DNA of 37,365 bases from a virus: positions 1-37,365 of IMG/VR virus record IMGVR_UViG_3300009160_000080. One strand, 5' to 3'. The notes under the pieces were generated by a model, which had not been told where the DNA came from, did not search any database, and worked only from the letters and a program-made list of their open reading frames with translations. Both the position numbers and the translations under genes were made by a program. This document shows positions 1 through 37,365 of the stretch, piece by piece. Each line of letters begins with the position of its first letter. Within the stretch, counting starts at the first letter, position 1.

Positions 1-49
1 CGTGTCGCCCCTCAAGGCGCTAGGCGAGAAGGTCGTCCCGATCCGATGA
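1..49 (+). CDS. C-terminal end of a second primase-helicase (partial)
   Basis: Read from base 2, this stretch encodes VSPLKALGEKVVPIR followed by TGA at 47-49. The complete primase-helicase that ends at 37294 finishes with VSPLRVLGEKVVPIR, so 13 of 15 residues agree while about 37 of 49 bases are identical; most changes are in third codon positions. This is therefore the 3' end of a homologous gene whose body lies upstream of the window. It runs tail-to-tail into the DUF6378 gene and overlaps it by 30 bases. The short length limits certainty about function, but the match to the other copy is unambiguous. Confidence 0.85.
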   Translation, partial: VSPLKALGEKVVPIR

Positions 50-307
50 GGTGCTGATTATTTCAGCCATCAAGGAACCGTAGCCAATAATATCTAAAAT
101 ACTGTCCAGGTGTGCCGGCGTCTCCCTGAGCCGAGCCAGTTTCACGTCTATCATCAGCAGGCAGACCATCGCCGGCGTGACGGGCATGCCAAGCGTCAAG
201 CTCATGCGCCTGGCCGTCTCGGTCATGTTGGCGCGGGCGTCGCCGTAGTTCTTGCCGCGCTGCTGGAGGATGTCCGAGACGCGGGACAGGGCGTCTTCGG
301 CATTCAT
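20..307 (-). CDS. DUF6378-type phage protein
   Basis: A 95-residue protein with the pattern RGKNYGDARANMTETARRMS near residue 17, then TPAMVCLLMIDVKLARL and HLDSILDIIGYGSLMA. This is the layout I know from the small phage proteins catalogued as DUF6378, whose biochemical role is not known to me. It is the last gene of the leftward operon: its ATG overlaps the stop of the upstream gene (ATGA at 304-307). Its 3' end overlaps the convergent primase-helicase tail at 1-49. A second, diverged copy of its C-terminus lies at 37296-37365. Confidence 0.85.
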   Translation of the reverse strand: MNAEDALSRVSDILQQRGKNYGDARANMTETARRMSLTLGMPVTPAMVCLLMIDVKLARLRETPAHLDSILDIIGYGSLMAEIISTSSDRDDLLA

Positions 308-489
308 TTGAACTTAATCAGCAAAAAGGGCTTGTCGGCGATGCGCTTGATCGGCCAGCCGATTTTGGATGCGTTGGGGCTGGGGCTGGGGTAACGCAAC
401 TGCCAGACCATGTTTGTATATTCCTCCGGCGTGTGTGCCCGAGACAGGGCGCCGAGGGTGCGGCGTCCGCCGTCTTCGTCGTAAATCAT
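304..489 (-). CDS. Small phage protein, function unknown
   Basis: Encodes 61 residues beginning MIYDEDGGRRTLGALSR and ending PFLLIKFK. I chose the start at 489 rather than the longer upstream ATG because AGGAGG lies about 8 bases before it on the minus strand and because it forms an ATGA overlap with the upstream small membrane protein gene. The stop overlaps the start of the DUF6378 gene. No domain is recognised. It is a soluble, basic, probably regulatory or accessory protein, translationally coupled to both neighbours. Confidence 0.7.
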   Translation of the reverse strand: MIYDEDGGRRTLGALSRAHTPEEYTNMVWQLRYPSPSPNASKIGWPIKRIADKPFLLIKFK

Positions 490-590
490 GGCAATACCTC
501 CTGTAAAAAGTAATAGGCCAGGGTTGTCGCGCCGGCCCAAAGCACCATCAAAAGAGTGAAAAAGGTAAGTCCCATTGGACGGTCCAGCAT
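486..590 (-). CDS. 34-residue single-pass membrane peptide
   Basis: A very short gene that begins MLDRPMGLTFFTLLMVLW and contains one hydrophobic segment (about residues 7-28) followed by the tail FLQEVLP. A GGGG-type ribosome binding site precedes the ATG, and the stop overlaps the next start as ATGA. A longer reading of the same frame up to 791 exists but would lie almost wholly on top of the neighbouring gene at 592-804, so I reject it. Function unknown. A tiny inner-membrane peptide in an early-type operon could act on host membrane processes, but that is inference. Confidence 0.6.
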   Translation of the reverse strand: MLDRPMGLTFFTLLMVLWAGATTLAYYFLQEVLP

Positions 591-591
591 G

Positions 592-804
592 TTAACCCCA
601 GTTCTTTCGTGCGCCTGATGCCTCATTGTCGGCCCAGCCGGCGGCGTAGGCCGATAGTTCCTCGGCTTCCATGCTGGCGGTGCCAATGCTGAGGCCCTTA
701 CCCGTGCCCCCTGGCCAATAGTGCGGGTTGAAGGGGCGTCCGTAATAATTATCGGCCGATCCGCAGTCGAAGGGCCCGCCGTGGCGTTCATCGTGCGCGC
801 TCAT
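592..804 (-). CDS. Conserved small phage protein (GSADNYYGRP motif)
   Basis: A 70-residue protein with CGSADNYYGRPFNPHYWPGG in the first half and ending ASGARKNWG. The G-S-A-D-x-Y-Y-x-R-P-x-x-P-H pattern with a C-terminal WG is one I have seen in many short phage proteins of unknown function. The start overlaps the stop of the GcrA-like gene (ATGA at 801-804). It ends one base before the start of the 34-residue membrane peptide. No catalytic residues can be assigned. Confidence 0.75.
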   Translation of the reverse strand: MSAHDERHGGPFDCGSADNYYGRPFNPHYWPGGTGKGLSIGTASMEAEELSAYAAGWADNEASGARKNWG

Positions 805-1313
805 GCCTGGGCCTGTGTTTTAGATCTAAAATCATACGCCAGGGCGACGTGCGTTGGGCAATACGGACGCGCGCCCTCCCGCAAGTCGCCGCAGAAGTAA
901 TACTCTCCCTGCGTGGCGGAGTTCAGGGGCCAGCGGCAACTGTGCGGCTGTAGGTCCATCATGCGCACCAAGCCCGGCGTCTTCGGGTCGATGGTGTCGT
1001 GGGGCGTGGCCTTCATAAGCTTGGGCGGCACGTCCTTCGTGAAGCGTTTACCGAAGGCGTAGCCGACGTGGGTGGTGCCGGCGCGAGACCGAGGCGTTGC
1101 GGGCGGCTTGGGCGCCGCCTTGACTGTAGACAAGGCGCAGGTGGGCACGGACATGCCCCCGGCGCGCAGGCGGTGGGCCTTGCCCAGTACGGCATTGCGC
1201 GTCAGCCCATTGCCTATGGTTTGTGCAATCTCGCCCGAATTGGCGCCGGCGCGCGTCATGCGTATCAGGATGCCTACGGCCTTGGGCGTCCAGGGTGTTG
1301 GGTGCTGTTTCAT
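801..1313 (-). CDS. GcrA-family transcriptional regulator
   Basis: A 170-residue protein. Residues about 8-49 form the GcrA N-terminal DNA-binding domain (WTPKAV... then IAQTIGNGLTRNAVLGKAHR). The C-terminus carries the conserved block CRWPL...YYFCG...PYCPTHVALAY at about 126-160. The linker is Pro/Ala-rich. In Caulobacter and relatives GcrA binds sigma70-RNA polymerase and activates promoters with methylated GANTC sites; a phage copy could redirect host transcription or cell-cycle timing. It overlaps both neighbours by ATGA. The family assignment is firm; the effect on the host is inference. Confidence 0.92.
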   Translation of the reverse strand: MKQHPTPWTPKAVGILIRMTRAGANSGEIAQTIGNGLTRNAVLGKAHRLRAGGMSVPTCALSTVKAAPKPPATPRSRAGTTHVGYAFGKRFTKDVPPKLMKATPHDTIDPKTPGLVRMMDLQPHSCRWPLNSATQGEYYFCGDLREGARPYCPTHVALAYDFRSKTQAQA

Positions 1314-1492
1314 AGGAATACCACCAGTTCGTGCGCCATGAACGCCACGGCAAAGGCGGAGGCGATTAGCGCGGCCAGCAAGACGACGCCGAACACCAGA
1401 GCGGCGACGCGCAGGGCGACGCTAGAACGGAGGGGCGGGGGCTCGTACACGGGGCGGTTGTCGGGGCGCAAGCCGTAGTTGCGGGGGCTCAT
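1310..1492 (-). CDS. Small membrane protein, function unknown
   Basis: A 60-residue protein. An N-terminal soluble part (MSPRNYGLRPDNRPVYEPPP) is followed by one long hydrophobic helix at about residues 26-55 (VALRVAALVFGVVLLAALIA and onwards). It has no catalytic motif and no cleavable signal. It overlaps the upstream Ala-rich gene and the downstream GcrA-like gene by four bases each, so all three are probably translated together. It is probably an inner-membrane single-pass protein. Confidence 0.65.
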   Translation of the reverse strand: MSPRNYGLRPDNRPVYEPPPLRSSVALRVAALVFGVVLLAALIASAFAVAFMAHELVVFL

Positions 1493-1749
1493 GCGGCACC
1501 CATTACGGCGGCATTCTTGGCGTCCTGGTGGGCGGAGGCGTAGGTGGCCTTATAGGCGGCCTCCAAGGCGGCGTGGGCGGCCTTCAGGGCGGCGTATGAC
1601 CCGCAGGCGGCGTAGGCTGCATCCAGGGCGGCGTAAGCCTTGGCGGCGTCGTAAGCGGCGGCTGCGGCGGCGCGGGCGGACGCCAGAGCGGCCTCCAGGG
1701 CGGCGTCGGCGTCGGCGTCAGTCTTGGGATTGTGTAGGTTCCATAGCAT
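1489..1749 (-). CDS. Alanine-rich helical repeat protein
   Basis: From the ATG at 1749 it encodes about 86 residues beginning MLWNLHNPKTDADADAALEA. More than half of the rest is alanine, in loose 11-residue repeats of the AALDAAYAAC and AALEAAYKATY type. AAGGA stands about 10 bases before this ATG. A TTG start at 1806 is possible but has no ribosome binding site. At DNA level the repeats share an AGGGCGGCGT-like block spaced 30-60 bases, suggesting internal duplication. It probably forms a long amphipathic helix. Function unknown; the coding assignment rests on the ATGA overlap with its downstream neighbour. Confidence 0.6.
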   Translation of the reverse strand: MLWNLHNPKTDADADAALEAALASARAAAAAAYDAAKAYAALDAAYAACGSYAALKAAHAALEAAYKATYASAHQDAKNAAVMGAA

Positions 1750-1778
1750 GAGATTTGTTTCCTTGAGTTGTTCGGTGG

Positions 1779-1806
1779 AGGTTAGATCAATGTTTGCAGG
1801 TGTCAA
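1779..1806 (-). promoter_or_regulatory. Possible internal leftward promoter
   Basis: On the minus strand TTGACA (1806-1801) is followed after 16 bases by TAACCT (1784-1779), upstream of the Ala-rich gene. The -35 element is perfect but the -10 element is poor. It could give extra transcription of the GcrA-like and downstream genes. Confidence 0.25.
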
Positions 1807-2063
1807 CTATTGTTTTGTGGATCTTCCAGGGCTGCATCGCACATCGCCACCCACTCAGCTTCTATGATATCCGTTAGCAGGGTGCCCCGAACGTATCCGC
1901 CGGCGGGGTGCGCGGCGGACCCGGCGTCGAGCATGGCCGGGGTACAGTCCCGCATGGTTTTTATGACGGCAATAGCGAAAACCCGCGCGTGGAACTCATT
2001 GATTATGCCCTCGCGCTCCTTGAATAGTATGGCCTGGGCTGCTCGTTCGACCATGTCGCTCAT
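1803..2063 (-). CDS. Conserved phage protein, function unknown
   Basis: An 86-residue protein with the order VERAAQAIL, VFAIAVIKTMRDCTPAMLDA, then IEAEWVAMCDAALEDP. This resembles the common small phage proteins in which a helix ending in 'xxAIxAMRxPTxxM' is followed by an Ala-Gly turn and a W-containing helix. No enzymatic motif is visible. The start shares ATGA with the stop of the upstream gene (2060-2063). It is probably a small all-helical soluble protein. Confidence 0.7.
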   Translation of the reverse strand: MSDMVERAAQAILFKEREGIINEFHARVFAIAVIKTMRDCTPAMLDAGSAAHPAGGYVRGTLLTDIIEAEWVAMCDAALEDPQNNS

Positions 2064-2281
2064 TTTGGCACCTCATGGCCTAGTACCAGGTTTAGCAGGC
2101 GCAGGGACCAGATCCGCTCCATCGCCTTGCGGGTCATGCCTCGCGCGGCGTTAGACTGGATCAGTTCCACTGACTTGGCATTATGGTGGATATACAGCCG
2201 GTCGTCCTGCCGGTGCTGAATGTCCAGGCTCAGGTTCTGGGCCCGCACCTCTTTCCGGCTTTCTACATGGTACCTTTGCAT
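2060..2281 (-). CDS. Small basic protein, function unknown
   Basis: A 73-residue protein, MQRYHVESRKEVRAQNLSLD..., rich in Arg, Lys, His and Asn and ending LLNLVLGHEVPK. It has no recognised domain. It starts three bases after the stop of the gene at 2285-2632 and overlaps the downstream gene by ATGA. Its net positive charge would fit nucleic-acid contact, but nothing in the sequence proves that. Confidence 0.6.
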   Translation of the reverse strand: MQRYHVESRKEVRAQNLSLDIQHRQDDRLYIHHNAKSVELIQSNAARGMTRKAMERIWSLRLLNLVLGHEVPK

Positions 2282-2284
2282 GGT

Positions 2285-2632
2285 CTAGGCCGCCCCTATT
2301 GCAGCGGCGAACAGAGCCTCAGAGCGAACCATTATCTCGCCTTGCGTGGGCGCCTTGTACGGCACGCACGCGCGCGCGTTGGATGCTAACTCCTGTTCCG
2401 CGAGCGTGCGGCACGCGCGGCGTAGGATGGTCGCCTTGTCCGCCAGATTGTCTTGCGCGCGCCCTACAGCGGCGCTGGCGGTAATGACACCCTCCTCCGC
2501 GGCATAGGTGAAGCGTTTCAGTTCCCGGCGTTCACGAGCCTTGCGGAAGGTTGCCCATGCGCGATCACTGGTGGCAGCGACGCGGCGCCAGTCGGAAACG
2601 GCTTTTTCGTAGGTTGTGAAGTGCGTTGCCAT
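2285..2632 (-). CDS. Helical phage protein, function unknown
   Basis: From the ATG at 2632 it encodes 115 residues beginning MATHFTTYEKAVSDWRRVAA. It is rich in Arg/Ala helices and ends LFAAAIGAA. I prefer this start to the ATG at 2680 because AAAGGA lies about 9 bases before it and because the longer version would overlap the methyltransferase-like gene. Two or three long helices are predicted by eye, with no catalytic motif. It sits mid-operon, downstream of the methyltransferase-like gene. Confidence 0.65.
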   Translation of the reverse strand: MATHFTTYEKAVSDWRRVAATSDRAWATFRKARERRELKRFTYAAEEGVITASAAVGRAQDNLADKATILRRACRTLAEQELASNARACVPYKAPTQGEIMVRSEALFAAAIGAA

Positions 2633-2664
2633 TGTGTTTGATCCTTTAGGTTGAGGGTGGGTAG

Positions 2665-3255
2665 TTAGTTTTTGCCCCATTGGCCGGCCATCGCGGCCGC
2701 TATTCCGGGGTAAGTAGCGGAGCGCAGTTTCCAGCGGTCGGGTGATGGTCCCAGTTTGTTCTGACCGCTGGCTGTTTGGTTGGCCCGGCGGGTTTTATTG
2801 TCGCCGGGCAGTGGGTTAACAGATACCAAAAGCGCTAGGTTTTTAAGCCACAAGCAGGTTTTTTTGCTAGCGTCATCGCCAAAATGCCAAGGTTGGATTA
2901 TCTGGTCGGGCTTCCTGATGCGGGTGGAGATGCAAGAAACCGGGTTTTCAAGTGCTATTTTGGGGATCGGCGCCGCAAGCAGCGCGCGTACAAAGTCTAG
3001 CGCGGACTCAGTCCTTTCTGCCCTGCCCGGAACCCGTTTGTTCCAATGCAGACCCGAAACGGCAAGGTAGGTGCAGGGGGGATGCGCCACCATAAAATCC
3101 CATCCCTGCCTTAGCACGGGCAGGACATCGCCTTGTATGTGGTTGGGCGAGCCATCGTCGCACGGCAACAGGTCGCAGGACCATGCATCGTGACCTAGGG
3201 CAGCAAAGGCCCGGCGGACGGTCCCGGAATACTCGCAAGCGACTAGGACGCGCAC
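2665..3255 (-). CDS. DNA cytosine methyltransferase-like protein
   Basis: A 196-residue protein. It opens with an AdoMet-fold strand and loop (MRVLVACEYSGTVRRAF), an acidic end of strand 2 (WSCDLLP), then DFMVAHPPCTYLAVSG at about 53-68, whose Pro-Pro-Cys places Cys61 as candidate nucleophile. ALENPV at 101-106 stands in for the ENV motif of C5-cytosine methyltransferases. It is much shorter than a standard Dcm enzyme (over 300 residues), and I see no clear target-recognition domain. It could modify phage DNA against restriction or be a diverged relative with another role. It overlaps the upstream gene by 13 bases. Confidence 0.75.
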   Translation of the reverse strand: MRVLVACEYSGTVRRAFAALGHDAWSCDLLPCDDGSPNHIQGDVLPVLRQGWDFMVAHPPCTYLAVSGLHWNKRVPGRAERTESALDFVRALLAAPIPKIALENPVSCISTRIRKPDQIIQPWHFGDDASKKTCLWLKNLALLVSVNPLPGDNKTRRANQTASGQNKLGPSPDRWKLRSATYPGIAAAMAGQWGKN

Positions 3256-4983: not shown

Positions 4984-4995
4984 GTCCCAACGCAT

Positions 4996-5047
4996 GGCAA
5001 TTGTGTCCGAATTAAGGCAAAGCCTGCCACAATTGAACACAATTGCC
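4996..5047. repeat. 11-bp perfect inverted repeat with nested hairpin
   Basis: GGCAATTGTGT at 4996-5006 pairs with ACACAATTGCC at 5037-5047. The loop contains a smaller AGGC/GCCT hairpin (5015-5025) and another CAATTG. It could be an operator dyad or an extruded structure; no T-tract follows, so it is not a terminator. Confidence 0.6.
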
Positions 5048-5130
5048 CGCCTGCCCGCCTGCCCGCCTGCCCGGCCCGCCTGCCCGGCCCGCCTGCGCCT
5101 GCCCGCCTGCCCGCCTGCCCGCCTGCCCGC
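5046..5130. repeat. CCCGCCTG tandem array (minus-strand G4 motifs)
   Basis: An 8-bp unit CCCGCCTG is repeated, with CCCGGCCCGCCTG variants in the middle. CCC runs at 5046, 5054, 5062 and 5070, and again at 5102, 5110, 5118 and 5126, are spaced by five bases. The minus strand therefore twice satisfies the G3N5G3N5G3N5G3 G-quadruplex pattern. Confidence 0.8.
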
Positions 5131-5171
5131 GTGCCGGCGGCCTGGTGCCGCGTGCCGGCGGCCTGGTGCCG
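5130..5171. repeat. Perfect 21-bp tandem duplication
   Basis: A 21-base unit beginning CGTGCCGGCGG is repeated exactly twice, at 5130-5150 and 5151-5171, with no spacer. The perfect identity implies recent duplication or strong constraint. Confidence 0.9.
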
Positions 5172-5175
5172 CCTG

Positions 5176-5211
5176 CCCGGCCCGCCCGGCCCGCCCGGCC
5201 CGCCCGGCCCG
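5176..5211. repeat. Four perfect copies of CCCGGCCCG
   Basis: The 9-bp unit CCCGGCCCG occurs at 5176, 5185, 5194 and 5203 without interruption. Its CCC runs are separated by only one or two bases, so the minus strand could form very stable short-loop G-quadruplexes. A plus-strand G-run (5225-5238) follows directly. Confidence 0.9.
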
Positions 5212-5257
5212 CCGGCGCCCAGCCGGGGGGAGGGAGGGCCCGGCCAGCCGCCGGCTC

Positions 5258-5291
5258 CGTGTACGAAGGGTTCGCGCACGAATTTTTTTTT
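5258..5291 (+). terminator. Strong intrinsic terminator with no gene upstream
   Basis: CGTGT (5258-5262) and CGAA pair with TTCG and GCACG (5276-5280) around a GGG loop, with a single A/C mismatch. Two A's and nine T's (5283-5291) follow. It would stop rightward transcription entering the terminase operon and implies a rightward transcript arising in the non-coding region. Confidence 0.7.
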
Positions 5292-5295
5292 ATAC

Positions 5296-5323
5296 GAAAA
5301 TAGCCCTGTCTTGCCGCCGTCAA
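5296..5323 (-). promoter_or_regulatory. Possible leftward promoter (Caulobacter-type)
   Basis: On the minus strand TTGACGG (5323-5317) is followed after 12 bases by GCTATTTTC (5304-5296). This resembles the alphaproteobacterial housekeeping consensus TTGACGS-N(10-14)-GCTANAWC. It would transcribe the G-rich strand of the arrays toward the iterons. Confidence 0.3.
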
Positions 5324-5339
5324 CTAAAAGACGTATCCA
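5311..5339 (+). promoter_or_regulatory. Possible rightward promoter giving a leaderless terminase mRNA
   Basis: TTGCCG (5311-5316), a 17-base spacer and TATCCA (5334-5339) place the expected transcription start at about the A of the ATG at 5346. No Shine-Dalgarno precedes that ATG. The hexamers are weak matches, so confidence is low. Confidence 0.3.
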
Positions 5340-5345
5340 TACCGA

Positions 5346-5783
5346 ATGAGCTACCATTCTCTGCCCTACGAGCCGCGCCGGCTTGAAGCGACTGAGGCGC
5401 GGCTAGAAGCGATATACGGCGCGGCCAAGCTCGGCCTGAAGGGCGACACCCTGGCGCTTGCCGCCGGGATGCTGCCTGTCGAATACCGCCGGCTACGCGA
5501 GTTCGACGCCGCAGCCGAGTTTGCCGAGCTGAAGGGCCGCGCTGACAGCGAGTACGCCGTGTCCAAGACCCTGCACGACGCCGCGCAGGCGGGCGACGCC
5601 AAGGCGGCGCTGGACATCCTCAAGCACGCGCACGGCTGGGTCGCCAAGCAGGCGCTGGACATCAACGTGGACCAGCGCATCAGCATCACGCAGGCGCTGG
5701 AGATGGCGCAGACGCGCGTGCTGGAGATCGTCGACACGACGTACACGGCGGTCGAGAACCAAATGGAGCAAGAACTTGGATAG
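5346..5783 (+). CDS. Putative terminase small subunit
   Basis: A 145-residue protein. The N-terminal half carries a helix-turn-helix-like stretch (AAKLGLKGDTLALAAGMLPV, then EYRRLREFD). A middle segment reads KTLHDAAQAGDAKAALDILK, followed by ITQALEMAQTRVLEIVDT as a C-terminal helix. Length, HTH plus helical oligomerisation region, and position two kilobases before the large terminase all fit a DNA-recognition small terminase; sequence alone does not prove it. The ATG has no visible Shine-Dalgarno and may be leaderless. It overlaps the next gene by eight bases. Confidence 0.65.
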   Translation: MSYHSLPYEPRRLEATEARLEAIYGAAKLGLKGDTLALAAGMLPVEYRRLREFDAAAEFAELKGRADSEYAVSKTLHDAAQAGDAKAALDILKHAHGWVAKQALDINVDQRISITQALEMAQTRVLEIVDTTYTAVENQMEQELG

Positions 5784-6147
5784 CGAACCAGCCCCCAGCT
5801 ACTACACGAAGCTGCCAAAGGGGCTGACGCCCGAGGAACTGTCGGCAGTGCAGTACCACCGCGACAACCTGGACCGGGGTACGTTTCTGACCCAGCCCAA
5901 CAATGAACTGACGACTTTTTACGGCGCTAGGATGGGGACGCCGGAGGGCGTCATGTACTTCCCGACCTACCGGAACGGCGTCATTCTTGAACCAAGAACG
6001 GCGTTTCGGGAGGCTGCGCGGTCTGGCGTTAAGTTCCCGACCTATGCTAACGAAGATCTCGCGAGCGCCGCCGAAACCAAATTACACGGCGTAATGGCAG
6101 CCGACACGGCGGCGTTTCTTGCCGCTAGAGCTAAGGCTAAAAAGTAA
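5776..6147 (+). CDS. Conserved phage protein with Lys tail, terminase-adjacent
   Basis: A 123-residue protein from a TTG start, with GGAG seven bases before it. It reads TKLPKGLTPEELSAVQYHRD, then LTTFYGARMGTPEGVMYFPT, and ends AARAKAKK. No in-frame ATG occurs until about residue 53, inside the conserved part, which supports the TTG. I do not recognise the family; it sits between the small terminase candidate and the DUF6321-like gene, so a role in packaging or head assembly is plausible. The C-terminal Ala/Lys tail resembles those of nearby genes. Confidence 0.7.
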   Translation: MDSEPAPSYYTKLPKGLTPEELSAVQYHRDNLDRGTFLTQPNNELTTFYGARMGTPEGVMYFPTYRNGVILEPRTAFREAARSGVKFPTYANEDLASAAETKLHGVMAADTAAFLAARAKAKK

Positions 6148-6165
6148 CACGACCGGAGCAAGAGC

Positions 6166-6429
6166 ATGGCGTCTAAAAGCAAGGGCCCGTCGCTGTCGGT
6201 TGGACGCGGAGAGAAACTGTCCGTCAAAGCGGGCGCGGGGCTGACGGCCAAGGGTCGCGCCAAGTACAACGCCGCCACCGGCTCACACCTCAAGGCGCCG
6301 GCACCCAGCCCCAAGACGGACGCCGACAAGGGCCGCAAGGCTAGCTTCTGCGCCAGGATGGGGGCAGTCGCAGCCAAGGCTAAGAATGGCGAACGCGCCA
6401 AGGCGTCACTCAAACGATGGAAGTGCTAA
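6166..6429 (+). CDS. DUF6321-like small basic protein
   Basis: An 87-residue, very basic protein. It contains GAGLTAKGRAKYNAATGSHL, KAPAPSPKT and KASFCARMGAVAAKAKNG, and ends ASLKRWKC. The sequence from LTAKGRAKYN to a terminal RKW/KRWKC matches my memory of the DUF6321 family in marine and other phages. GGAGC lies before the ATG. Function unknown; its charge suggests DNA binding, and its place among the packaging genes fits that. Confidence 0.85.
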   Translation: MASKSKGPSLSVGRGEKLSVKAGAGLTAKGRAKYNAATGSHLKAPAPSPKTDADKGRKASFCARMGAVAAKAKNGERAKASLKRWKC

Positions 6430-6430
6430 G

Positions 6431-6595
6431 ATGAAACCAGGTCTGTACACGAACATTAATCTGAAACGCGCCCGCATCGCCGCCGGGTCCGGCGAGAAGA
6501 TGCGCCAGCCCGGTGCCAAGGGTGCGCCCTCGGCCAAGGACTTCAGGGACAGCGCCAAGACGGCCAAGCCAGCCAAAACCAAAGCTAAAAAGTAG
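6431..6595 (+). CDS. 54-residue basic phage protein (GSGEKMRQPG motif)
   Basis: Starts MKPGLYTNINLKRARIAAGS, continues GEKMRQPGAKGAPSAKDFRD and ends TKAKK. This short family (x-GLYxNIxxKRxRIxAGSGEKMRxPGxKGAPTAxxF) is common in phages and lacks a known role. I use the ATG at 6431, one base after the upstream stop; a longer frame from 6386 would only overlap the DUF6321-like gene. It is highly basic and probably nucleic-acid associated. Confidence 0.8.
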   Translation: MKPGLYTNINLKRARIAAGSGEKMRQPGAKGAPSAKDFRDSAKTAKPAKTKAKK

Positions 6596-6610
6596 CGCGG
6601 GAAAAGAAAC

Positions 6611-7513
6611 ATGCCAGCGCCGGCTAACAGCCTGTCAAATTTGTGGGGTGCAGTCCCAGCGGCAAAGGACGCGGGGTCGAACGCGCTGTCGTACCTGTGG
6701 AAACAATCTATGCCGTCTGACGCGAGAGTGTTTTTAAATACGTTGGCCGGGGATCGGTCGCCAATAACAGAAAAAGATTTTCGGCCAGACGAGCTAGCAG
6801 AGATGCGCGGAATTATAGAAGATAAAACCCGCAAATTTAAAGAAAGGGAAAAAAACCTTGGCGCATACCAGCAGGAGTTTAATAACTTTTCGCCCTTAAA
6901 TTTTGCATTAACGGTTGCTAAAGATCCGGAATGGCGGGAGTTAGGCCAGCTTTCTGCCTATCAAGACAAAATAACGCCCGCGCAGGAAACCCGGCGAAAC
7001 GAGTTGCATAGCCGCGTTTTTAGCCGCTACGAAAAGCAAGTGCCGTCGCTTAAAATGTTGTACTACGCCCTTGGCGAAACCCCGGCAAACGTTATGAAGA
7101 TAACGCAGTCATACAAGAATAATATTGTTAACAGCGAGAACCAAAAGGATATTCAATCTACAGCCGATCTTGCTCATCAGTACGCCACTAAAGGCGGTAA
7201 TATCCAGTATGAAGATATGAACTATTCGGCCACGCCACGAGCAATGACTACGTTGGGGAGGTTTAATTTTAGCCGCAAGCCGGACAACGCTGTTGAAATT
7301 ACAGATCGTTACGATTTTAGCAACGAAACTAGGGATTCGGCGGTTGAAAACTATAAGTCCATGACGCCGTTTAACCGAATGATGTCCGTAATGTCGGACA
7401 TCGCGCGGACAAAGGCGTATACCAACCCCCAAGACTTAGCTAGTATACTAGGGAACGCCTACATTGGGGCTGATGGCCGGCCCGTAAATATACGCATACC
7501 CGCGAAAAAATAA
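6611..7513 (+). CDS. Phage protein of unknown function, AT-rich gene
   Basis: A 300-residue protein: MPAPANSLSNLWGAVPAAKD, a Lys/Glu-rich helical middle (DKTRKFKEREKNLGAYQQEF), and a C-terminus with EITDRYDFSNETRDSAVENY, then ILGNAYIGADGRPVNIRIPA. The closing 'RYDF ... GRPVNIRIP' block looks familiar from other phage structural or effector proteins, but I cannot name it. Codon choice (TTT, AAA, ATA) differs sharply from the GC-rich neighbours, a sign of recent transfer. AAAAGAAAC precedes the ATG. It ends exactly where terL begins. Confidence 0.7.
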   Translation: MPAPANSLSNLWGAVPAAKDAGSNALSYLWKQSMPSDARVFLNTLAGDRSPITEKDFRPDELAEMRGIIEDKTRKFKEREKNLGAYQQEFNNFSPLNFALTVAKDPEWRELGQLSAYQDKITPAQETRRNELHSRVFSRYEKQVPSLKMLYYALGETPANVMKITQSYKNNIVNSENQKDIQSTADLAHQYATKGGNIQYEDMNYSATPRAMTTLGRFNFSRKPDNAVEITDRYDFSNETRDSAVENYKSMTPFNRMMSVMSDIARTKAYTNPQDLASILGNAYIGADGRPVNIRIPAKK

Positions 7514-9043
7514 ATGCAGGAACCGCAGTACTCGGCCCAGGACGAGATGCAGTTGATGTCTCAACTGTGGGCGCCGGGCCTTAAGGACGACCCGCTCAAG
7601 TTCGTGCTGTATTCGTTCCCGTGGGGGCAAAAAGGCACGCCGCTGGAGAACTTCCACGGGCCGCGCAAGTGGCAGCGTGAGGTGCTGCAAGACCTGGCCG
7701 ACCACATCAAGCAGAACAACGGCAAGGTGGACTTCGACACGTTCCGGATGTCAACGTCCTCCGGGCGCGGCATCGGCAAGTCGGCGCTGGTGTCTTGGCT
7801 GGTCATCTGGATGCTATCGACCCGGATCGGGTCTACCACCCTCGTGTCGGCCAATTCGGAAGCGCAGCTACGCTCGGTAACCTGGGCGGAGATAACCAAG
7901 TGGCTGTCCATGAGCCTGCAAAGCCACTGGTTCGAGGTGTCGGCCACCCGCGTCATGCCGGCCAAGTGGCTAACCGACCTGGTCGAGCGCGACCTGAAGA
8001 TGGGAACGCGCTACTGGGGCGTTGAGGGGCGGCTGTGGTCGGCGGAGAACCCGGACGCCTACGCCGGCGTGCATAACTTCGCGGGCGTGCTGCTGGTATT
8101 CGACGAGGCCAGCGGTATCGACGACAGCATCTGGTCCGTTGCGGCGGGGTTTTTCACGGAAAACACGCCAAATCGCTTCTGGTTGGCGTTTTCCAACCCA
8201 CGGCGCAACACCGGGTACTTCTACGAGACATTTAACTCCAAGCGGGACTTCTGGCGCAACAAGGAAGTGGATGCCCGCACCGTCGAGGGCACCGACAAGG
8301 CCGTGTACCAGCAGATTATCGACGAATACGGGCCGGACAGCAGCCAGGCGCACGTCGAAGTGTACGGGCTGTTCCCGAACGCCAGCGACGACCAGTTCAT
8401 AAGCGTTAATGCCGTGACTGAGGCTATGGCGCGGACACGGATGAAGGACCCCACGGCCCCGATGATCGTCGGCGTGGACCCGGCGCGGTTCGGGGCGGAC
8501 TCGACGGTCATCGTCGTGCGCCAGGGGCGCGATATAGTCGAGATCCGGCGCTATAAGGGCGACGATACGATGGAAACCGTGGGCCGCGTCATTGATGTTA
8601 TTGAGGAATACAAGCCCGCGATGGTCGTCATTGACGAGGGCGGCCTGGGCGCCGGCGTCGTGGACCGCCTCAAGGAGCAAAAGTATAAGATCCGGGGTGT
8701 AAACTTCGCCAATAAGGCCAAGAACCCGATGATGTGGGGCAACAAGCGCGCCGAGATGTGGGGCGACATGCGCGAGTGGCTCAAGACGGCGGCCCTGCCC
8801 AACGACAAGTACCTGAAGTCGGACCTCATCAGCCCCCTGATGAAGCCCGACAGCAAGGGCTCGATATTCTTGGAAAGCAAGAAGGACATGAAGGCCCGAG
8901 GGCTATCGTCTCCTGACGCTGCGGATGCTATAGCCGTGACGTTCGCGTTCCCCGTGGCACGCCGGGAACACCGACCGATTGACGCAAAGGCACGCACGTC
9001 GTACTCTCACGGCGGAATACCCACGTCTTGGATGGGATCTTAA
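7514..9043 (+). CDS. terL: Terminase large subunit
   Basis: A 509-residue packaging motor. The ATPase domain has Walker A SSGRGIGKSA at about 82-91 and Walker B VLLVFDEAS at about 192-200, followed by SNPRRNTGYF as coupling region. The nuclease domain has the three acidic positions of the RNase H fold: VGVDPARFGADST (about 319-331), VVIDEGGLGAG (about 371-381) and SPDAADAIA (about 467-475). It translocates DNA into the procapsid through the portal and cuts the concatemer. It starts directly after the upstream stop without a clear Shine-Dalgarno, so coupling is likely. Confidence 0.97.
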   Translation: MQEPQYSAQDEMQLMSQLWAPGLKDDPLKFVLYSFPWGQKGTPLENFHGPRKWQREVLQDLADHIKQNNGKVDFDTFRMSTSSGRGIGKSALVSWLVIWMLSTRIGSTTLVSANSEAQLRSVTWAEITKWLSMSLQSHWFEVSATRVMPAKWLTDLVERDLKMGTRYWGVEGRLWSAENPDAYAGVHNFAGVLLVFDEASGIDDSIWSVAAGFFTENTPNRFWLAFSNPRRNTGYFYETFNSKRDFWRNKEVDARTVEGTDKAVYQQIIDEYGPDSSQAHVEVYGLFPNASDDQFISVNAVTEAMARTRMKDPTAPMIVGVDPARFGADSTVIVVRQGRDIVEIRRYKGDDTMETVGRVIDVIEEYKPAMVVIDEGGLGAGVVDRLKEQKYKIRGVNFANKAKNPMMWGNKRAEMWGDMREWLKTAALPNDKYLKSDLISPLMKPDSKGSIFLESKKDMKARGLSSPDAADAIAVTFAFPVARREHRPIDAKARTSYSHGGIPTSWMGS

Positions 9044-9189: not shown

Positions 9190-11436
9190 ATGGATCCTAC
9201 CGGTATTATTGCGGCGGCTAAGGTTGCCAATGTTGGCGGCCCGACCCCCGATAAAGACAGCAATGATACGCTGGCTACCATGCGTAGCCGGTTTACTATG
9301 GCTATGTCCGCCTACAGCGACAGCCGCGAGGATGAACTGGACGACCTGCGCTTTATGGCCGGTTCGCCAGACAACCAGTGGCAGTGGCCGGCGGACGTGC
9401 TGGCAACACGCGGATCTGTGCAGGGGCAGACGATCAATGCGCGCCCCTGCCTGACAATCAACAAGCTGCCCCAGCACGTCCGCCAAGTAACCAACGACCA
9501 GCGGCAGAACCGCCCGTCTGGCAAGGTCATCCCGGCAGACGACAACGGCGACGTCGAAGTCGCGGAGATCTTCGACGGCATCGTCCGTCATATCGAATAT
9601 ATGTCGGACGCCGACGTGGCCTACGACACCGCCTGCGACAACCAGGTGACTTACGGCGAAGGCTACATCCGCATCCTGACCGAGTATTGCCGCGAAAACA
9701 GCTTCGATCAAGATCTGAAGATAGGCCGTATTCGCAATTCGTTTAGCGTCTACATGGACCCGACGATCCAAGACCCAACTGGGGCCGACGCTCAGTGGTG
9801 CTTTATCACCGAGGATGTCACCAAGGCCGACTACTCCCGGATGTTCCCCGACGCCGCGCCGGTCAGCTCCATGCTGGCCCAGGGCGTAGGCGACCAGTCT
9901 CTCAGCCAGTGGCTGTCCGAAGACACCGTGCGGATTGCCGAGTATTTCTATATCGACCACGAAAACGCGACTTTGAACCTGTATCCAGGCAATTTGACGG
10001 CGTTTGCTAACACCCCGCAAGACAAGCAACTGAAGGCTATGTACGGCGGAAAACCGCTGAAAAGCCGCGTTGTTGACCGTAAAAAGGTCATGTGGATGAA
10101 AACTAACGGCTACGAAGTCATCGAAGAACGCGAGTGGGCCGGGCAATGGATTCCCGTGGTCCGCGTGGTCGGAAATGAGTTCGAAGTAGACGGCCAACTG
10201 CACGTCTCAGGTCTTGTGCGTAATGCCAAGGACGCGCAGCGGATGTACAACTACTGGGTTAGCCAGGAGGCCGAAATGCTGGCCCTGGCGCCCAAAGCGC
10301 CCTTTATCGGCTACGGCGGCCAGTTTGAAGGCTACGAACAGCAGTGGAAGACCGCCAATACGACCAACTGGCCGTATCTGGAGGTCAATCCGGACGTCAC
10401 AGACGGCGCTGGCGGTAGTCTGCCACTACCCCAGCGGGCGCAGCCTCCGATGGCCTCCAGCGGCCTCCTACAGGCCAAGGCGGGCGCTTCGGACGACATC
10501 AAGTCCACGACCGGGCAGTACGACAGCAGCCTGGGCGCGAGAAGCAACGAACGCTCGGGCAAGGCGATCCTCGCCCGCGAGCGCCAGGGCGACACCGGCA
10601 CCTACCACTACGTCGATAACCTGGCCCGCGCGATCCGGCACGTCACCCGGCAGTTGGTCGATATGATCCCTAAGATCTACGACACGGAGCGCGTAGCGCG
10701 CATCGTGGGTATCGACGGCGAAGTCGATATGGTGAAGATCAACCCCTCGCAGCCGGAACCCGTCAAGAAGATCGTCGACCAGGCCGGCAACGTCATAGAG
10801 AAGATCTACAATCCGTCCGTGGGCACCTACGACGTCATGGTCACGACTGGCCCCGGCTACATGACCAAGCGCCAGGAAGCCCTAGACGCTATGGGCAATA
10901 TCCTCCAGACCAACCCGCAACTGTGGCAAGTGGCCGGCGACCTGTTCGTAAAGAACATGGACTGGCCGGGAGCGCAGGAGATGGCGGCACGGTTTAAGAA
11001 GATCATTGACCCGCGTGTGCTGGCAGACGACGACAAGTCGCCTGAGCTTCAGCAGGCCGAGAAGCTGAACGAGGCGATGCATCAGGAATTGAACCAAGTC
11101 ACTGGAATGCTGAAGAATATCGGGCAGTCTATGGAGGCGCAGGACTTGAAGGTTAAGGAGTTTGAGGCCGAAGTTAAGGCTTTTGACGCCGAAACCAAGC
11201 GTATTAGCGTGGTGCAGGCGTCCATGAACCCCGAGCAGATCCAAGACATAATCATGGGCACGATCCACGGTATGATGACCTCGGGCGACCTAGTCTTGCC
11301 TTCTGGCGAACGTGCGCCTATGGAACAGGGCGAGCAGCCGGAGATGGCAGCGCAGCCAGAGATGCCGCCGCCGGAAACAGGCGCCGAAGCGCCGCCTGAT
11401 ATGGGACAAATGCCTGATATGGGACAGCCGCAATGA
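9190..11436 (+). CDS. P22-like portal protein
   Basis: A 748-residue protein of the size of P22 gp1. N-terminal features are RFTMAMSAYSDSREDELDDL, FMAGSPDNQW and CLTINKLPQHVRQVTNDQRQ, followed by a D-rich stem region (YDTACDNQVTYGEGYIRI). The C-terminus (about 615-748) is a long helical and Pro/Glu/Met-rich barrel tail ending PDMGQMPDMGQPQ. It forms the dodecameric ring at the capsid vertex, receives TerL during packaging and the gp4-like adaptor afterwards. The stop overlaps the DUF5856 gene start (ATGA). Confidence 0.93.
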   Translation: MDPTGIIAAAKVANVGGPTPDKDSNDTLATMRSRFTMAMSAYSDSREDELDDLRFMAGSPDNQWQWPADVLATRGSVQGQTINARPCLTINKLPQHVRQVTNDQRQNRPSGKVIPADDNGDVEVAEIFDGIVRHIEYMSDADVAYDTACDNQVTYGEGYIRILTEYCRENSFDQDLKIGRIRNSFSVYMDPTIQDPTGADAQWCFITEDVTKADYSRMFPDAAPVSSMLAQGVGDQSLSQWLSEDTVRIAEYFYIDHENATLNLYPGNLTAFANTPQDKQLKAMYGGKPLKSRVVDRKKVMWMKTNGYEVIEEREWAGQWIPVVRVVGNEFEVDGQLHVSGLVRNAKDAQRMYNYWVSQEAEMLALAPKAPFIGYGGQFEGYEQQWKTANTTNWPYLEVNPDVTDGAGGSLPLPQRAQPPMASSGLLQAKAGASDDIKSTTGQYDSSLGARSNERSGKAILARERQGDTGTYHYVDNLARAIRHVTRQLVDMIPKIYDTERVARIVGIDGEVDMVKINPSQPEPVKKIVDQAGNVIEKIYNPSVGTYDVMVTTGPGYMTKRQEALDAMGNILQTNPQLWQVAGDLFVKNMDWPGAQEMAARFKKIIDPRVLADDDKSPELQQAEKLNEAMHQELNQVTGMLKNIGQSMEAQDLKVKEFEAEVKAFDAETKRISVVQASMNPEQIQDIIMGTIHGMMTSGDLVLPSGERAPMEQGEQPEMAAQPEMPPPETGAEAPPDMGQMPDMGQPQ

Positions 11437-13233: not shown

Positions 13234-14448
13234 ATGGCTAACTCTATTCTTACTATTGACATGATTACCAGGAAGTCCCTGGAAATCCTGGAAAATAACC
13301 TGGTTCTGACGCGTAACTGCAATCGTCAGTATGACGATAGCTTTGCCGTTGAAGGCGCCAAGATCGGCTCTACCCTCCGCGTCCGTCTGCCCGACCGGGC
13401 ACTGGTCACGGATGGCGCGGCCTTGCAGGTGCAGGACGACAACGAGCAGTACACCACGCTCACTGTTGCCTCGCAGAAGCATATCGGCGTTAACTTTACC
13501 TCTGCCGAACTCACGATGCAGTTGGACGATTTCGCTGAACGCGTCCTGAAGCCTCGTATTTCGCAGCTTGCGTCCAGCATCGACGCTGATGTCGCCAACT
13601 CCTTCCAGAGCATCTACAGCACGGTTGGTACTCCCGGCACCACGCCGGCTACCTCGCTCGTGCTGTTGCAGGCTCAGCAGAAGTTGAACGAATACGCTTC
13701 GCCTATGAACGACCGTTATGCCACCGTCAACCCGGCTGCTAACGCCGGGCTGGTTGAGGGCATGAAGGGCTTCTTCAACCCGACCGACACCATCAGCCGC
13801 CAGTTCAAGCAGGGCATGATGGGCACGGGCGTGTTGGGCTACGACGAGGTCAATATGTCGCAGTCCATCCGCCAGTTCACCACGGGCTCGCGTTCGTTGG
13901 CGGACACCATCCTCGTCAACGGCGCTGTTTCCACCCAGGGCCAGTCCACCATCAGCATTGATGGCGGCACTGGTTCGGCGACAGTCGTAGTCGGCGACGT
14001 GTTCACCATTGCCAATGTGTTCTCGGTCAACCCGCAGACCCGCGAAAGCACTGGTTCGCTCCAGCAGTTCGTCGTTACCGCAGCCAATACGGCTTCGAGC
14101 GGCTCCTGGACGAGCATCGCGGTTTCGCCGGCGATGTACACGTCAAGCAATGCCCTAGCCACCATCAACGCGTTTCCCGCCGACAATGCGGCTGTTACGT
14201 TCGTTGGTGCGGCTTCGACGGCCTACCCGCAGAACTTGGTGTACCAGAAGAACGCCATCACGTTCGCCACCGCCGACCTCCTGCTCCCGCAGGGCGTCGA
14301 CATGGCGTCGCGTCAGGTTCACAACGGCATCTCGCTCCGCGTTGTTCGTCAGTACGACATCAACAACGACCGTATGCCTTGCAGAATTGACGTTCTGTAC
14401 GGTTACAGCGTGATCCGTCCGCCTATGGCTGTTCGGATTTGGGGTTAA
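13234..14448 (+). CDS. Major coat protein, P22 gp5 family
   Basis: A 404-residue protein with the hallmarks of the P22 coat family: MANSILTIDMITRKSLEILE near the start, NRQYDDSFAVEGAKIGSTLR, the sequence VNFTSAELTMQLDDFAERVL, PMNDRYATVNPAANAGLVEG, and a C-terminus with RQYDINNDRMPCRIDVLYGY ending MAVRIWG. The HK97 fold with an inserted domain is expected for this family. GGAAGG precedes the ATG. A strong terminator follows, as expected for a gene needing many copies. Confidence 0.95.
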   Translation: MANSILTIDMITRKSLEILENNLVLTRNCNRQYDDSFAVEGAKIGSTLRVRLPDRALVTDGAALQVQDDNEQYTTLTVASQKHIGVNFTSAELTMQLDDFAERVLKPRISQLASSIDADVANSFQSIYSTVGTPGTTPATSLVLLQAQQKLNEYASPMNDRYATVNPAANAGLVEGMKGFFNPTDTISRQFKQGMMGTGVLGYDEVNMSQSIRQFTTGSRSLADTILVNGAVSTQGQSTISIDGGTGSATVVVGDVFTIANVFSVNPQTRESTGSLQQFVVTAANTASSGSWTSIAVSPAMYTSSNALATINAFPADNAAVTFVGAASTAYPQNLVYQKNAITFATADLLLPQGVDMASRQVHNGISLRVVRQYDINNDRMPCRIDVLYGYSVIRPPMAVRIWG

Positions 14449-32981: not shown

Positions 32982-34933
32982 AACTCTGGCTTGATTTCGA
33001 GACGCGCAGCCGGTGCGACCTCAAGGGGCGCGGCGTCTACAACTACGCGCAGGACGCCAGCACCGAGGTGCTGTGCATGTCCTACGCCTTCGACAACGGC
33101 GAGGTGGTTACCTGGCGTCCCAGTGATCCATTCCCCGAGCAGGTGCGTAACCATACCGGCCAGATCCGCGCGCACAACGCCGCGTTCGAGCGCCTGATCT
33201 TCTGGTACGTCCTCCAGATCGACTTCAAGCTGGAGCAGTTCTACTGCACCGCCAGCCAGGCCCGCGCCAACTGCGCGCCGGGTAGCCTAGAAGACGTTGG
33301 CCGGTTCTCGGGCGCGTCCATGAAGAAGGACCACAAGGGCGGCGCGCTAATCCGGCTGCTGTCGATCCCGCAGGCGGACGGTCAGTTCCGCGACGACCCC
33401 GCCAAGATGGCCGAGATGGTGGCCTATTGCGAGCAGGACGTCCGCGCCATGCGGGCGTTCAGCCAGGCCATGCGCGACCTATCCGACACCGAACTAGCTG
33501 ACTACCACGTCAACGAGCGCATCAACGACCGCGGCGTCCTGCTGGACCTGCCGCTGGCCCAGGCTGCGGTGCGCTACGCCGACGCCGAGATGACCGAGAT
33601 CCAGGACATCGTGCGCGAGGTGACCGCCGGCGAGATCAGCAGCGTCCGCAGCCCCAAGATGCGCGGCTGGGTGCTGGACCGGGTCGGCCCCGAGGCTACC
33701 AAGCTGGCGACGGTCTACAAGGACGGCGTCCCCAAGATGTCCATCGACCGCAACGTCCGCGCCAGCCTGCTAGTGCTGGCCGAGGAGAACCCCGCCGAGG
33801 TGCCACCGGACGTGGCCGAGGTGATCCAGTGCGCCGACGACCTGTGGGCGTCGAGCGTTGCCAAGTTCAGCCGGGCGGCGTCCCTAGCCGACGAGGAGGA
33901 CCACCGGGTGCGCGGCGCGTTCGTGTTCGCTGGCGGCGCTGCCACCGGTCGCGCGTCGTCGTTCGGGCTTCAGGTCCACAACTTCCCTCGCGTCTGTGCG
34001 GACGACCCCGAGACGGTGCGCCACGCTATCGTGCGCGGGCACCAGATCGTCCCCCTGCACGGCAAGCGCGTCACCGACGTTCTTAAGCGTATGCTGCGCC
34101 CGTCGCTGATGGCATCGCCCGGCAAGAGCCTGGTCGTTGCCGACTGGGCGTCGGTCGAGGCGCGGGTGACGCCGTGGGCATCGGATCGTCCAGCCGGCAT
34201 CGACAAGCTGGAGCTGTTCCGGGCGGGCGAGGATGTCTACAAGGTCAACGCCGCCGCCACCTACCGGGTGCCGGTCGCTGACGTTACCAAGGCCCAGCGC
34301 CAGGTCGGCAAGGTTCAGGAGCTTGCCTGCGGGTTCGCCGGCGGCGTCGGTGCCTTCGCGGCGATGGGCCGGATCTACGGCGTCGTCATGGCCGAGAGCG
34401 AGGCCCTGCGTATGGTCAATGCGTGGCGCCGGGCTAACCCCTGGTCTGTGCCCTACTGGCAAGACCTGGAGCGCGCCTACACGGCGGCGCTGCGGTATCC
34501 AGGTCGGGAGTTCGGCGCGGGCCGCGTAACGTATTATTACGACCGCCAACATCTCTGGTATATCCTGCCCTCAAGCCGTGTCCTATGCTATCCTTTCGCA
34601 CGTTTGGACGAGGATGGTCCGACATACGCCAAAGCCGCCTGGAAACCGGGCGCGGACGCTAAAGAATGGCCCCGCGCACGTCTCTGGAAGGGTCTGGCGT
34701 GCGAGAACATCACCCAGGCCATCGCCCACGATTTGCTGCGAGAAACGCTGCGGAAGCTGGACGAGGCCGGGCATGAAATCGTACTTCATGTGCATGACGA
34801 AATTGTTTTGGAATGTACGGACGCACCGCGAGATGCTGAGGTACTGCTGACTGCAATGCGTACACCGCCTGCTTGGGCCGAGGGCTTGCCTCTCGATGCT
34901 GAGGTGGCAATCATGTCGAGATACGGCAAATAA
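32978..34933 (+). CDS. Family A DNA polymerase with 3'-5' exonuclease
   Basis: A 651-residue replicative polymerase. The exonuclease domain has LDFETRS (Asp5, Glu7), AHNAAFERL as Exo II and AYCEQDVRAM as Exo III. The polymerase domain has motif A VVADWASVEARV at about 386-397 (usually DYSQIELR-like), motif B in QRQVGKVQELACGFAGGVGA, and motif C LHVHDEIVLE near 604-613 with the catalytic Asp. DWASVEAR and ACGFAGG are variants seen in phage polymerases. It would copy the phage genome. It is coupled to a short leader ORF and followed by the primase-helicase. Confidence 0.96.
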   Translation: MKLWLDFETRSRCDLKGRGVYNYAQDASTEVLCMSYAFDNGEVVTWRPSDPFPEQVRNHTGQIRAHNAAFERLIFWYVLQIDFKLEQFYCTASQARANCAPGSLEDVGRFSGASMKKDHKGGALIRLLSIPQADGQFRDDPAKMAEMVAYCEQDVRAMRAFSQAMRDLSDTELADYHVNERINDRGVLLDLPLAQAAVRYADAEMTEIQDIVREVTAGEISSVRSPKMRGWVLDRVGPEATKLATVYKDGVPKMSIDRNVRASLLVLAEENPAEVPPDVAEVIQCADDLWASSVAKFSRAASLADEEDHRVRGAFVFAGGAATGRASSFGLQVHNFPRVCADDPETVRHAIVRGHQIVPLHGKRVTDVLKRMLRPSLMASPGKSLVVADWASVEARVTPWASDRPAGIDKLELFRAGEDVYKVNAAATYRVPVADVTKAQRQVGKVQELACGFAGGVGAFAAMGRIYGVVMAESEALRMVNAWRRANPWSVPYWQDLERAYTAALRYPGREFGAGRVTYYYDRQHLWYILPSSRVLCYPFARLDEDGPTYAKAAWKPGADAKEWPRARLWKGLACENITQAIAHDLLRETLRKLDEAGHEIVLHVHDEIVLECTDAPRDAEVLLTAMRTPPAWAEGLPLDAEVAIMSRYGK

Positions 34934-34942
34934 GGAGACGAA

Positions 34943-37294
34943 ATGGCTGACCGCCGCACTTTCATCGAATACATCACCGGCCTAGCAATGGAGGGCGAGA
35001 CAGCCCTGCTGGTGCGCCAGAAGCCTTGGATGCGGGACAACGAGCTTCAGTACCATGCGGACGGGACGCTCAAGTGTACCTGGCCGGCGTACCTACCCGC
35101 CCATAAACTGAAGGACGGCCAAGCCTGGTACGCCAACACGGGCGCGTTCATATTGGACCGTTTCGTAGACGGCAAGCTGTCGGCGGCCCGCGACTATTGC
35201 GACTTCGTTCTGGTTATGATGCTGGACGACATCGGCACCAAGTCCAAGACCCCGCCGCTGGCGCCGACGTGGATCATGGAGACATCGCCGGGGTCGTTCC
35301 AGTGGGGGTACGGTTTCAGCGACCAGCCCACCAAGGGCCGGTTTACTGCCGCCATCCGCGCCATAGCCGAGGCGGGCTACACGGATCCAGGCGCCACGAA
35401 CGCCGTCCGCAACTTCCGTCTGCCGGGGTCGGTCAACCTCAAGCCTGGGCGCGACCTGTTTGCGTCGCGTTTGGTCGAGTTCCACCCGGAGCGGGAGTAC
35501 ACCCTAGACGAGATATGCGCCGCTCTGGGCGTCACGCCGGGCGAGGAGGACGGCGGCGACGTTAAGGCGATCACCCTGCGCGACACCGGCAAGGACACGG
35601 TCCTGCAATGGCTGAACGACAAGGGTCTGGTCCTGTCCCAGCCGAACGGCGAGGGCTGGCTGTCCATCGTCTGCCCTAACAGCGCCGCGCACACGGACGG
35701 GATCGTCGAGGCCCGCTACAAACCCTTGGACCGCGCCTTCGACTGCTTCCACGGTCATTGTGTAGACCTGGACAGCCGCGCGTTTCTGGACTGGGTAGCC
35801 GAGAACGGTGGCCCGCGCGCGACGCCGGGGCTGCGCGACGAACTGCTGGCCGAACGCATGGCGCTGGCGATGGACAAGATCGCGCCGAGCGAGGCGTTCC
35901 CAGACCGCGCCAAGGAGTTTATCGCCGAGGTCGAGCGCAAGGAGCGCGGGCGCGTCGAGAAGTCCGCCTGGTTTGAACGTTACGCCTACATCCAGACGGA
36001 TGACGCTTACTTCGACATCCAGGAGCGCGAGGAGGTCACCCGGTCGGCATTTAACGCCGTCTACCGTCACATTGACTGCCGGTCGGTGCATAACCCCAAG
36101 CTGCGTGTGCTGCCGGCGCACTGCTTTGACGAGAACCGCCAAGCCGCCGGGGCCAAGGCTCTCACCGGGATCACCTACTCCCCCGGCGACAGCGTCTTCG
36201 TGGCCCGCGAGGGCCAAGTCTACGGCAACCGCTGGATCGACGCGCGCCCTGACGTGTCCGCCGTCCCGTCGGGCGACGTGTCGCCCTGGATGGCGCACTG
36301 CGAGACGATGCTGCCCGAGCCTAGCGAGTTGCAGCACTGCCTCGACGCTATGGCGTTCAAGGTCCAGAACCCCAAGGTCAAGGTCAACCACGCGATCCTG
36401 CACGGCGGCGACGAGGGCTGCGGCAAGGATACGATGTGGGCACCGTTCATCTGGGCCATCGCTGGCCCGCACCACCGGAACCGGTCGATTGTAGATAACG
36501 ATAACCTTTCTTCGCAGTGGGGTTACGACCTCGAAGCCGAGGTCATCATCCTGAACGAACTCAAGGAACCCGAGGCCCGCGAGCGCCGCGCTCTGGCTAA
36601 CAAGCTCAAGCCCATCATCGCGGCGCCGCCGGAGACGCTGACGGTCAACCGCAAGGGCCTCCACCCCTACCAGATGGTCAATCGCCTGTTCGTCCTGGCG
36701 TTTACGAACGACCCCCTGCCGATCAGCATACCCACCCAGGACCGGCGCTGGTTCTGCCTGTGGTCCACTGCCCCGCGCATGGACGCCGACGCAGCCCGCG
36801 ACCTGTGGGCCTGGTACGGTGCCGGAGGGTTTGCGACCATCGCGCGGTGGCTGCACGACCGTGACGTGTCCAGGTTCAACCCTGCTGCTGCGCCTGCCGT
36901 CACCGACTTCAAGATCAACATGGTCGAACACGGCATGAGCGGCGCCGAGAGCCACCTGGTCGATCTGATGCGGTCGCGTTCCGGGCCTTTCGCCAGCGGC
37001 ATCTCGGCGGGTCCGTTCCATATCCTGCTGGACCGGGTTATGCAGTCCGGTCTGGTGCCCCCGCATATCAAGATCCCGACGGCGGCGCTGCTTCATGCGT
37101 TCAAGGAGGCAGGCTGGCGCGACCGTGGGCGCGTCTCGACCCGCGAGTTGACCACCAAGCGGCACATATTCTCGGCGCGGTCGTTGGATCACTTGAACAA
37201 CTCGGACGCGCGCCGGATAGCCGAAATAGAGGCGACCGGCGGGGCCGTGTCGCCCCTTCGGGTGCTGGGTGAAAAGGTAGTGCCTATCAGGTGA
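34943..37294 (+). CDS. Primase / SF3 helicase (DUF5906-type)
   Basis: A 783-residue protein. The N-terminal third is a RepB/primase-polymerase-like domain (PTWIMETSPGSFQWGYGFSD, AVRNFRLPGSVNLKPGRD). A putative zinc site follows (CPNSAAHTDG near 244 with DCFHGHC near 266). The SF3 helicase has Walker A GGDEGCGKDTMW (about 487-498), Walker B EVIILNELKEPE (about 533-544) and NRLFVLAFTNDPLP as sensor region. It combines primer synthesis with unwinding, like the P4 alpha protein, which also binds iterons. GGAGACGAA precedes the ATG. A diverged copy of its 3' end lies at 1-49. Confidence 0.9.
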   Translation: MADRRTFIEYITGLAMEGETALLVRQKPWMRDNELQYHADGTLKCTWPAYLPAHKLKDGQAWYANTGAFILDRFVDGKLSAARDYCDFVLVMMLDDIGTKSKTPPLAPTWIMETSPGSFQWGYGFSDQPTKGRFTAAIRAIAEAGYTDPGATNAVRNFRLPGSVNLKPGRDLFASRLVEFHPEREYTLDEICAALGVTPGEEDGGDVKAITLRDTGKDTVLQWLNDKGLVLSQPNGEGWLSIVCPNSAAHTDGIVEARYKPLDRAFDCFHGHCVDLDSRAFLDWVAENGGPRATPGLRDELLAERMALAMDKIAPSEAFPDRAKEFIAEVERKERGRVEKSAWFERYAYIQTDDAYFDIQEREEVTRSAFNAVYRHIDCRSVHNPKLRVLPAHCFDENRQAAGAKALTGITYSPGDSVFVAREGQVYGNRWIDARPDVSAVPSGDVSPWMAHCETMLPEPSELQHCLDAMAFKVQNPKVKVNHAILHGGDEGCGKDTMWAPFIWAIAGPHHRNRSIVDNDNLSSQWGYDLEAEVIILNELKEPEARERRALANKLKPIIAAPPETLTVNRKGLHPYQMVNRLFVLAFTNDPLPISIPTQDRRWFCLWSTAPRMDADAARDLWAWYGAGGFATIARWLHDRDVSRFNPAAAPAVTDFKINMVEHGMSGAESHLVDLMRSRSGPFASGISAGPFHILLDRVMQSGLVPPHIKIPTAALLHAFKEAGWRDRGRVSTRELTTKRHIFSARSLDHLNNSDARRIAEIEATGGAVSPLRVLGEKVVPIR

Positions 37295-37295
37295 C

Positions 37296-37365
37296 TTAGA
37301 CGTCGCTATTCAGCCCGGCCAGCAGGGAACCATAGCCAATAATATCTAGGATACTGTCCAGGTGC
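37296..37365 (-). CDS. C-terminus of a second DUF6378 protein (partial)
   Basis: The minus strand encodes HLDSILDIIGYGSLLAGLNS then DV and TAA at 37298-37296; the gene runs off the window end. The DUF6378 protein at 20-307 contains HLDSILDIIGYGSLMA at the same place. Over a 45-base block, 40 bases agree and most differences are synonymous. Its stop lies one base beyond the primase-helicase stop, whereas the other copy overlaps the primase tail by 30 bases. Confidence 0.85.
   Translation of the reverse strand, partial: HLDSILDIIGYGSLLAGLNSDV

Follow-up and report, generated by a model that had tools for sequence, protein, structure and literature searches.

The window analysed here is a whole IMG/VR record (G000) of 37,365 bases, with no flanking sequence beyond either end, and it raises the question how the two ends of a single phage contig came to be homologous without being identical. 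Homology without identity had been claimed in the preliminary description and was borne out: positions 1-112 and 37246-37364 align with 72% identity over 119 columns (BLASTN E = 4.7e-12), with a single 7-base gap located directly after the primase stop codon. The local score of this end match is 54.5, whereas 2,000 random positions of the window gave at most 16.5. No exact terminal repeat is present at the window ends, the longest shared word being 16 bases, and the other self-matches of the window are confined to a low-complexity stretch at 5047-5219.

Both ends encode the last 15 residues of a primase-helicase, as had been proposed; comparison of the translations (right end VSPLRVLGEKVVPIR, left end VSPLKALGEKVVPIR, each followed by a stop codon) showed 13 of the 15 residues to be equal. 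Among the 48 bases of these primase pieces 12 differ, 8 of them at third positions, and 8 of 10 changed codons are synonymous. The assignment of a second shared piece, with 40 of 45 bases identical, to a DUF6378 protein also stands, the family being confirmed by a match to PF19905 (E 1.8e-16). Here 5 of 45 bases differ between positions 68-112 and 37320-37364, and of the 5 codons affected 4 keep their amino acid. For the primase and DUF6378 pieces together this amounts to 12 synonymous codons among the 15 changed, with both frames open. In the following, the right-end version of this convergent primase/DUF6378 junction is called allele A and the left-end version allele B (Table 1).

Table 1 Coordinates of the two junction alleles and of the main genes in the window
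Feature	Position	Strand	Evidence or remark
Allele A, primase/DUF6378 convergent junction, contig right end	37246..37365	+	120/120 bases identical to L003 4050-4169
Allele B, same primase/DUF6378 junction, contig left end	1..116	+	72% to 37246-37364
Primase-helicase, 783 aa, allele A C-terminus	34943..37294	+	DUF5906 PF19263; phrog_1156 DNA primase
DUF6378 protein, allele B version, 95 aa	20..307	-	PF19905 E 1.8e-16; ORF list
Terminase large subunit; synteny marker across the junction	7514..9043	+	phrog_2; same strand, downstream of primase in relatives
P22-like portal protein	9190..11436	+	PF16510 E 6e-174
P22-like coat protein	13234..14448	+	PF11651 E 3.7e-39
Sequence after the junction on the circle	117..2683	.	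100% identical to L003 4173-6739

When viral contigs were scanned with the window primase, L003 (IMGVR_UViG_3300009158_002230) was recovered, a contig of 6,879 bases whose primase protein is 100% identical to that of the window. Positions 1-4169 of L003 correspond to window 33197-37365 (99.5% identity, the last 120 bases being identical), while its positions 4050-6879 match window 1-2823, with 100% identity over window 117-2683. The L003 sequence past allele A (4050-4169) runs unbroken into window 114 onward, and a base by base comparison past the junction confined the differences to window 1-116 and 2684-2782. L003 carries the junction once, unbroken, between the right end and the left body of the window. 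A sister lineage (L004/L115), 93% identical over the region, is likewise single-copy across the junction. Since L003 has a single copy of the junction, with flanks of 99.5-100% identity, the two flanks are parts of the same genome, with only ~116-120 bases existing in two versions. Read from the L003 alignment, window base 37365 is followed on the circle by window base 114; the alignment offsets would give a circle of 37,252 bases with allele A and of 37,245 bases with allele B.

Two islands of ~100 bases, window 33442-33548 and 2684-2782, were observed in which the window and L003 show 11 and 18 differences, respectively, mostly at third codon positions, the sequence around them being nearly or fully identical. 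These islands look like patchy allele exchange. The ends of the L003 contig, too, are close to these islands of difference.

The two alleles differ in the layout of the genes that meet at the junction. In allele A the primase stop codon (37292-37294) is followed by the stop of the minus-strand DUF6378 gene (low end 37296) and its C-terminal codons. The DUF6378 protein of this allele has 87 aa and the end GSLLAGLNSDV, its stop lying just beyond that of the primase. In allele B, with the primase stop at 47-49 and the DUF6378 stop at 20-22, the genes overlap by 30 bases and the 95-aa DUF6378 protein ends in EIISTSSDRDDLLA; the tail encoded by L004 is of the same kind (EIASTSSDRDDLLA). Judged from their sequences, A and B are both intact coding alleles. 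Within positions 1-56, allele B sides with L004 at 15 columns where A differs, and with A at a single column where L004 differs. Positions 57-116 give a mixed picture (A and B equal at 8 columns, B and L004 at 8, A and L004 at 5, and all three different at 1). At positions 117-204 of the B end all 13 informative columns agree with A, against L004, which from 117 on differs from the window at 13 of 88 columns. By this pattern allele B looks like a recombinant or an intermediate allele, rather than a sequencing error or simply the sequence of a sister species.

An exact-match scan of viral contigs found allele A only in L003 and allele B in no other contig. In a protein scan the left-end DUF6378 protein had matches in L003 and L004 and otherwise only at two distant loci. 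A scan with the portal protein revealed no contigs of the same species (best matches 79-81%), and a scan with the ejection protein yielded L004 and L199 (89%).

The record almost certainly represents one complete copy of the ~37.25-kb genome of a circular-mapping P22-like podovirus, its ends being two alleles left where the circle was opened at a bubble. The genome is taken to be a single circular-mapping one because L003 and L004 both cross the junction in single copy. The sampled population would contain, together in one sample, at least two alleles of a ~116-120-base island over the 3' ends of the primase and DUF6378 genes, allele B presumably having arisen by recombination with an L004-like lineage. 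Two such alleles would turn the assembly graph into a circle with a bubble, and the assembler would open the circle at this bubble, so that the contig would start with arm B and finish with arm A. This explanation is supported by the contiguous single-copy junction in independent contigs, by the intact alleles and by relatives with the same end pattern elsewhere. Against it count the lack of an exact copy of allele B in other viral contigs, the short length of L003 (6.9 kb) and the trimming of the ends: the left end begins only 12 bases before the first difference between A and B, which is below any usual k-mer overlap, and the right end stops just short of the point of arm merger; no k-mer-length overlap is left at the ends.

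The effect is an ordinary one, already known in kind, namely within-population variation acting on metagenome assembly. The COBRA study reported that assemblers break at multi-path positions, with within-population variation as a simulated cause, and it screens for contigs that run at both ends into closely related sequences (PMC10914622). The case treated there is like the window in that a complete circular-mapping phage contig is broken at a multi-path point, with ends in closely related sequences. However, the window ends lack an exact maxK overlap, which makes them invisible to overlap-based circularity tests. An assembly bridging two population variants had been among the readings offered in the preliminary description, and this part of it stands. 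Its premise of identical junctions in a circular genome is valid for clonal material but fails in a mixed population, as the relatives with diverged ends at other loci indicate.

The same description also proposed that two diverged relatives are joined head to tail, as tandem prophages or a natural chimera, the contig comprising one unit and the start of the next. Ends that are homologous without identity agree with this, but in L003 the right end continues, with one copy of the junction, into the left body at 100% identity. This contiguous single-copy junction rules out the head-to-tail joining of two diverged genomes, and we consider such a reading extremely improbable. Against tandem prophages it also counts that L003 re-enters the same genome beyond the junction, with no second genome or host DNA there, and that no integrase was seen among the annotated proteins, a non-exhaustive test. 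Bacterial genome contigs with relatives amount to only two 12-kb MAG contigs (primase 64-65%), and one of these shows genes of the phage group in order, not a host-phage junction.

If only allele A were genuine, window 1-116 could be a mis-extension into another, L004-like species, and the population would hold no B allele. Bases 1-56 do match L004 at all informative columns but one; B is, however, a third sequence at 57-116 and equals A from 117 on, where L004 differs (13 of 88 columns). Allele B is therefore not simply L004 sequence, and a mis-extension is very unlikely. Homologous ends might also be produced by a linear phage with diverged true terminal repeats or by a gene duplicated locally within a larger genome, but the unit occurs in L003 and L004 as one internal copy, and the relatives are of similar genome size, often with exact end overlaps. 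Replication keeps terminal repeats identical, which further opposes diverged ones. Practically no chance is left for either of these.

The opened circle is in line with the gene order and contig ends of relatives. Twelve near-complete relatives carry both primase and terminase. The interval between these genes, spanning the equivalent of the window junction, is intact in nine of them, on the same strand and 2.8-5.4 kb in length; the other three are cut, like the window, inside this interval. In the circular record MW202483 the primase is followed by small opposite-strand genes and then the terminase, an order as across the window junction. Comparison of the ends of 13 near-complete relatives revealed exact overlaps in five (60, 114, 123, 127 and 127 bases), near-exact overlaps in four (G007, G009, G012 and G014), no overlap in two (G010 and G013), and clearly diverged overlaps in two (G005 and G015), at loci other than that of the window. 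The ends of G005 (the contig of L014) are equal at 328 of 395 columns (83%), with mismatches by position of 41/6/14, and those of G015 (the contig of L073) at 186 of 215 columns (86.5%), with mismatches by position of 16/2/4; in both, a single codon position holds most of the mismatches. From the gene order upstream of the primase, the G005 overlap would lie in the DNA polymerase gene; the G015 overlap would lie at the start of the coat gene, its translation beginning like the window coat protein (MANSILTIDMITRK). Both overlaps end in an exact shared block, which is the expectation where a bubble closes. On these sequence comparisons, G005 and G015 are probably complete circles that are not recognisable by exact end repeats.

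A circular map fits this kind of phage, with its P22-like portal and coat and a related isolate closed to a circle. This isolate, Rhodoferax phage P26218 (KP792623; PMC4657236), is a freshwater podovirus of 36.3 kb with a P22-like portal 42.5% identical to that of the window. Its SPAdes contigs had differing start points and were closed to a circle by PCR, and the genome was taken by the authors as terminally redundant or circularly permuted (PMC4657236). Unlike the window phage, P26218 is a clonal isolate, and end polymorphism is not mentioned in the available part of its description (PMC4657236). Two circular records, Podoviridae sp. ctNMl277 (MW202483; 38.8 kb) and Phage DSL-LC05 (OR003940; 37.6 kb), share 66-79% identity in terminase, 73-75% in portal and 72-77% in coat with the window and are different species from its phage. 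DSL-LC05 has no match to the window primase or polymerase, and in MW202483 the DUF6378 homologue is located elsewhere, not at the primase junction.

P22-type portal, coat and large terminase were all found in the window (PF16510, PF11651 and phrog_2). The set is compatible with headful packaging but is no proof of it, and a packaging type is not claimed. No tRNA genes are present in the window, and its composition shows no step pointing to two source genomes. A putative DNA methyltransferase is encoded on the minus strand at 2665-3255 (phrog_757, E 1e-63; no Pfam match at E 0.001). The minus-strand DUF6378 protein (20-307) matches phrog_474, labelled phosphofructokinase, which seems a doubtful label for a protein of 95 aa. 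G+C-rich tandem repeats with units of 5, 8, 9 and 21 bases (e.g. TGCCCGCC) lie at 5044-5213, where the minus-strand block of small genes switches to the plus-strand packaging and structural genes. These repeats may serve as an origin or as a site for regulation or packaging, or may be prone to recombination.

Tentatively, and with some doubt, it may be speculated that the 3' junction of primase and DUF6378 is a polymorphic island under active recombination in this phage population, in which allele B, a mosaic of A and an L004-like lineage, swaps an overlapping and a non-overlapping DUF6378 tail, and that such islands set the contig breaks in this phage group. The importance of the finding is practical, not conceptual, and lies in its use in judging completeness: completeness tests based on end repeats can miss a complete phage genome whose ends are allelic versions instead of copies. 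Since a clearly diverged (83-87%) end overlap also occurs in 2 of 13 near-complete relatives, some of the records classed as linear would probably be recovered by an end test that tolerates imperfect homology. Such ends also provide a few examples of alleles recently exchanged among phage lineages.
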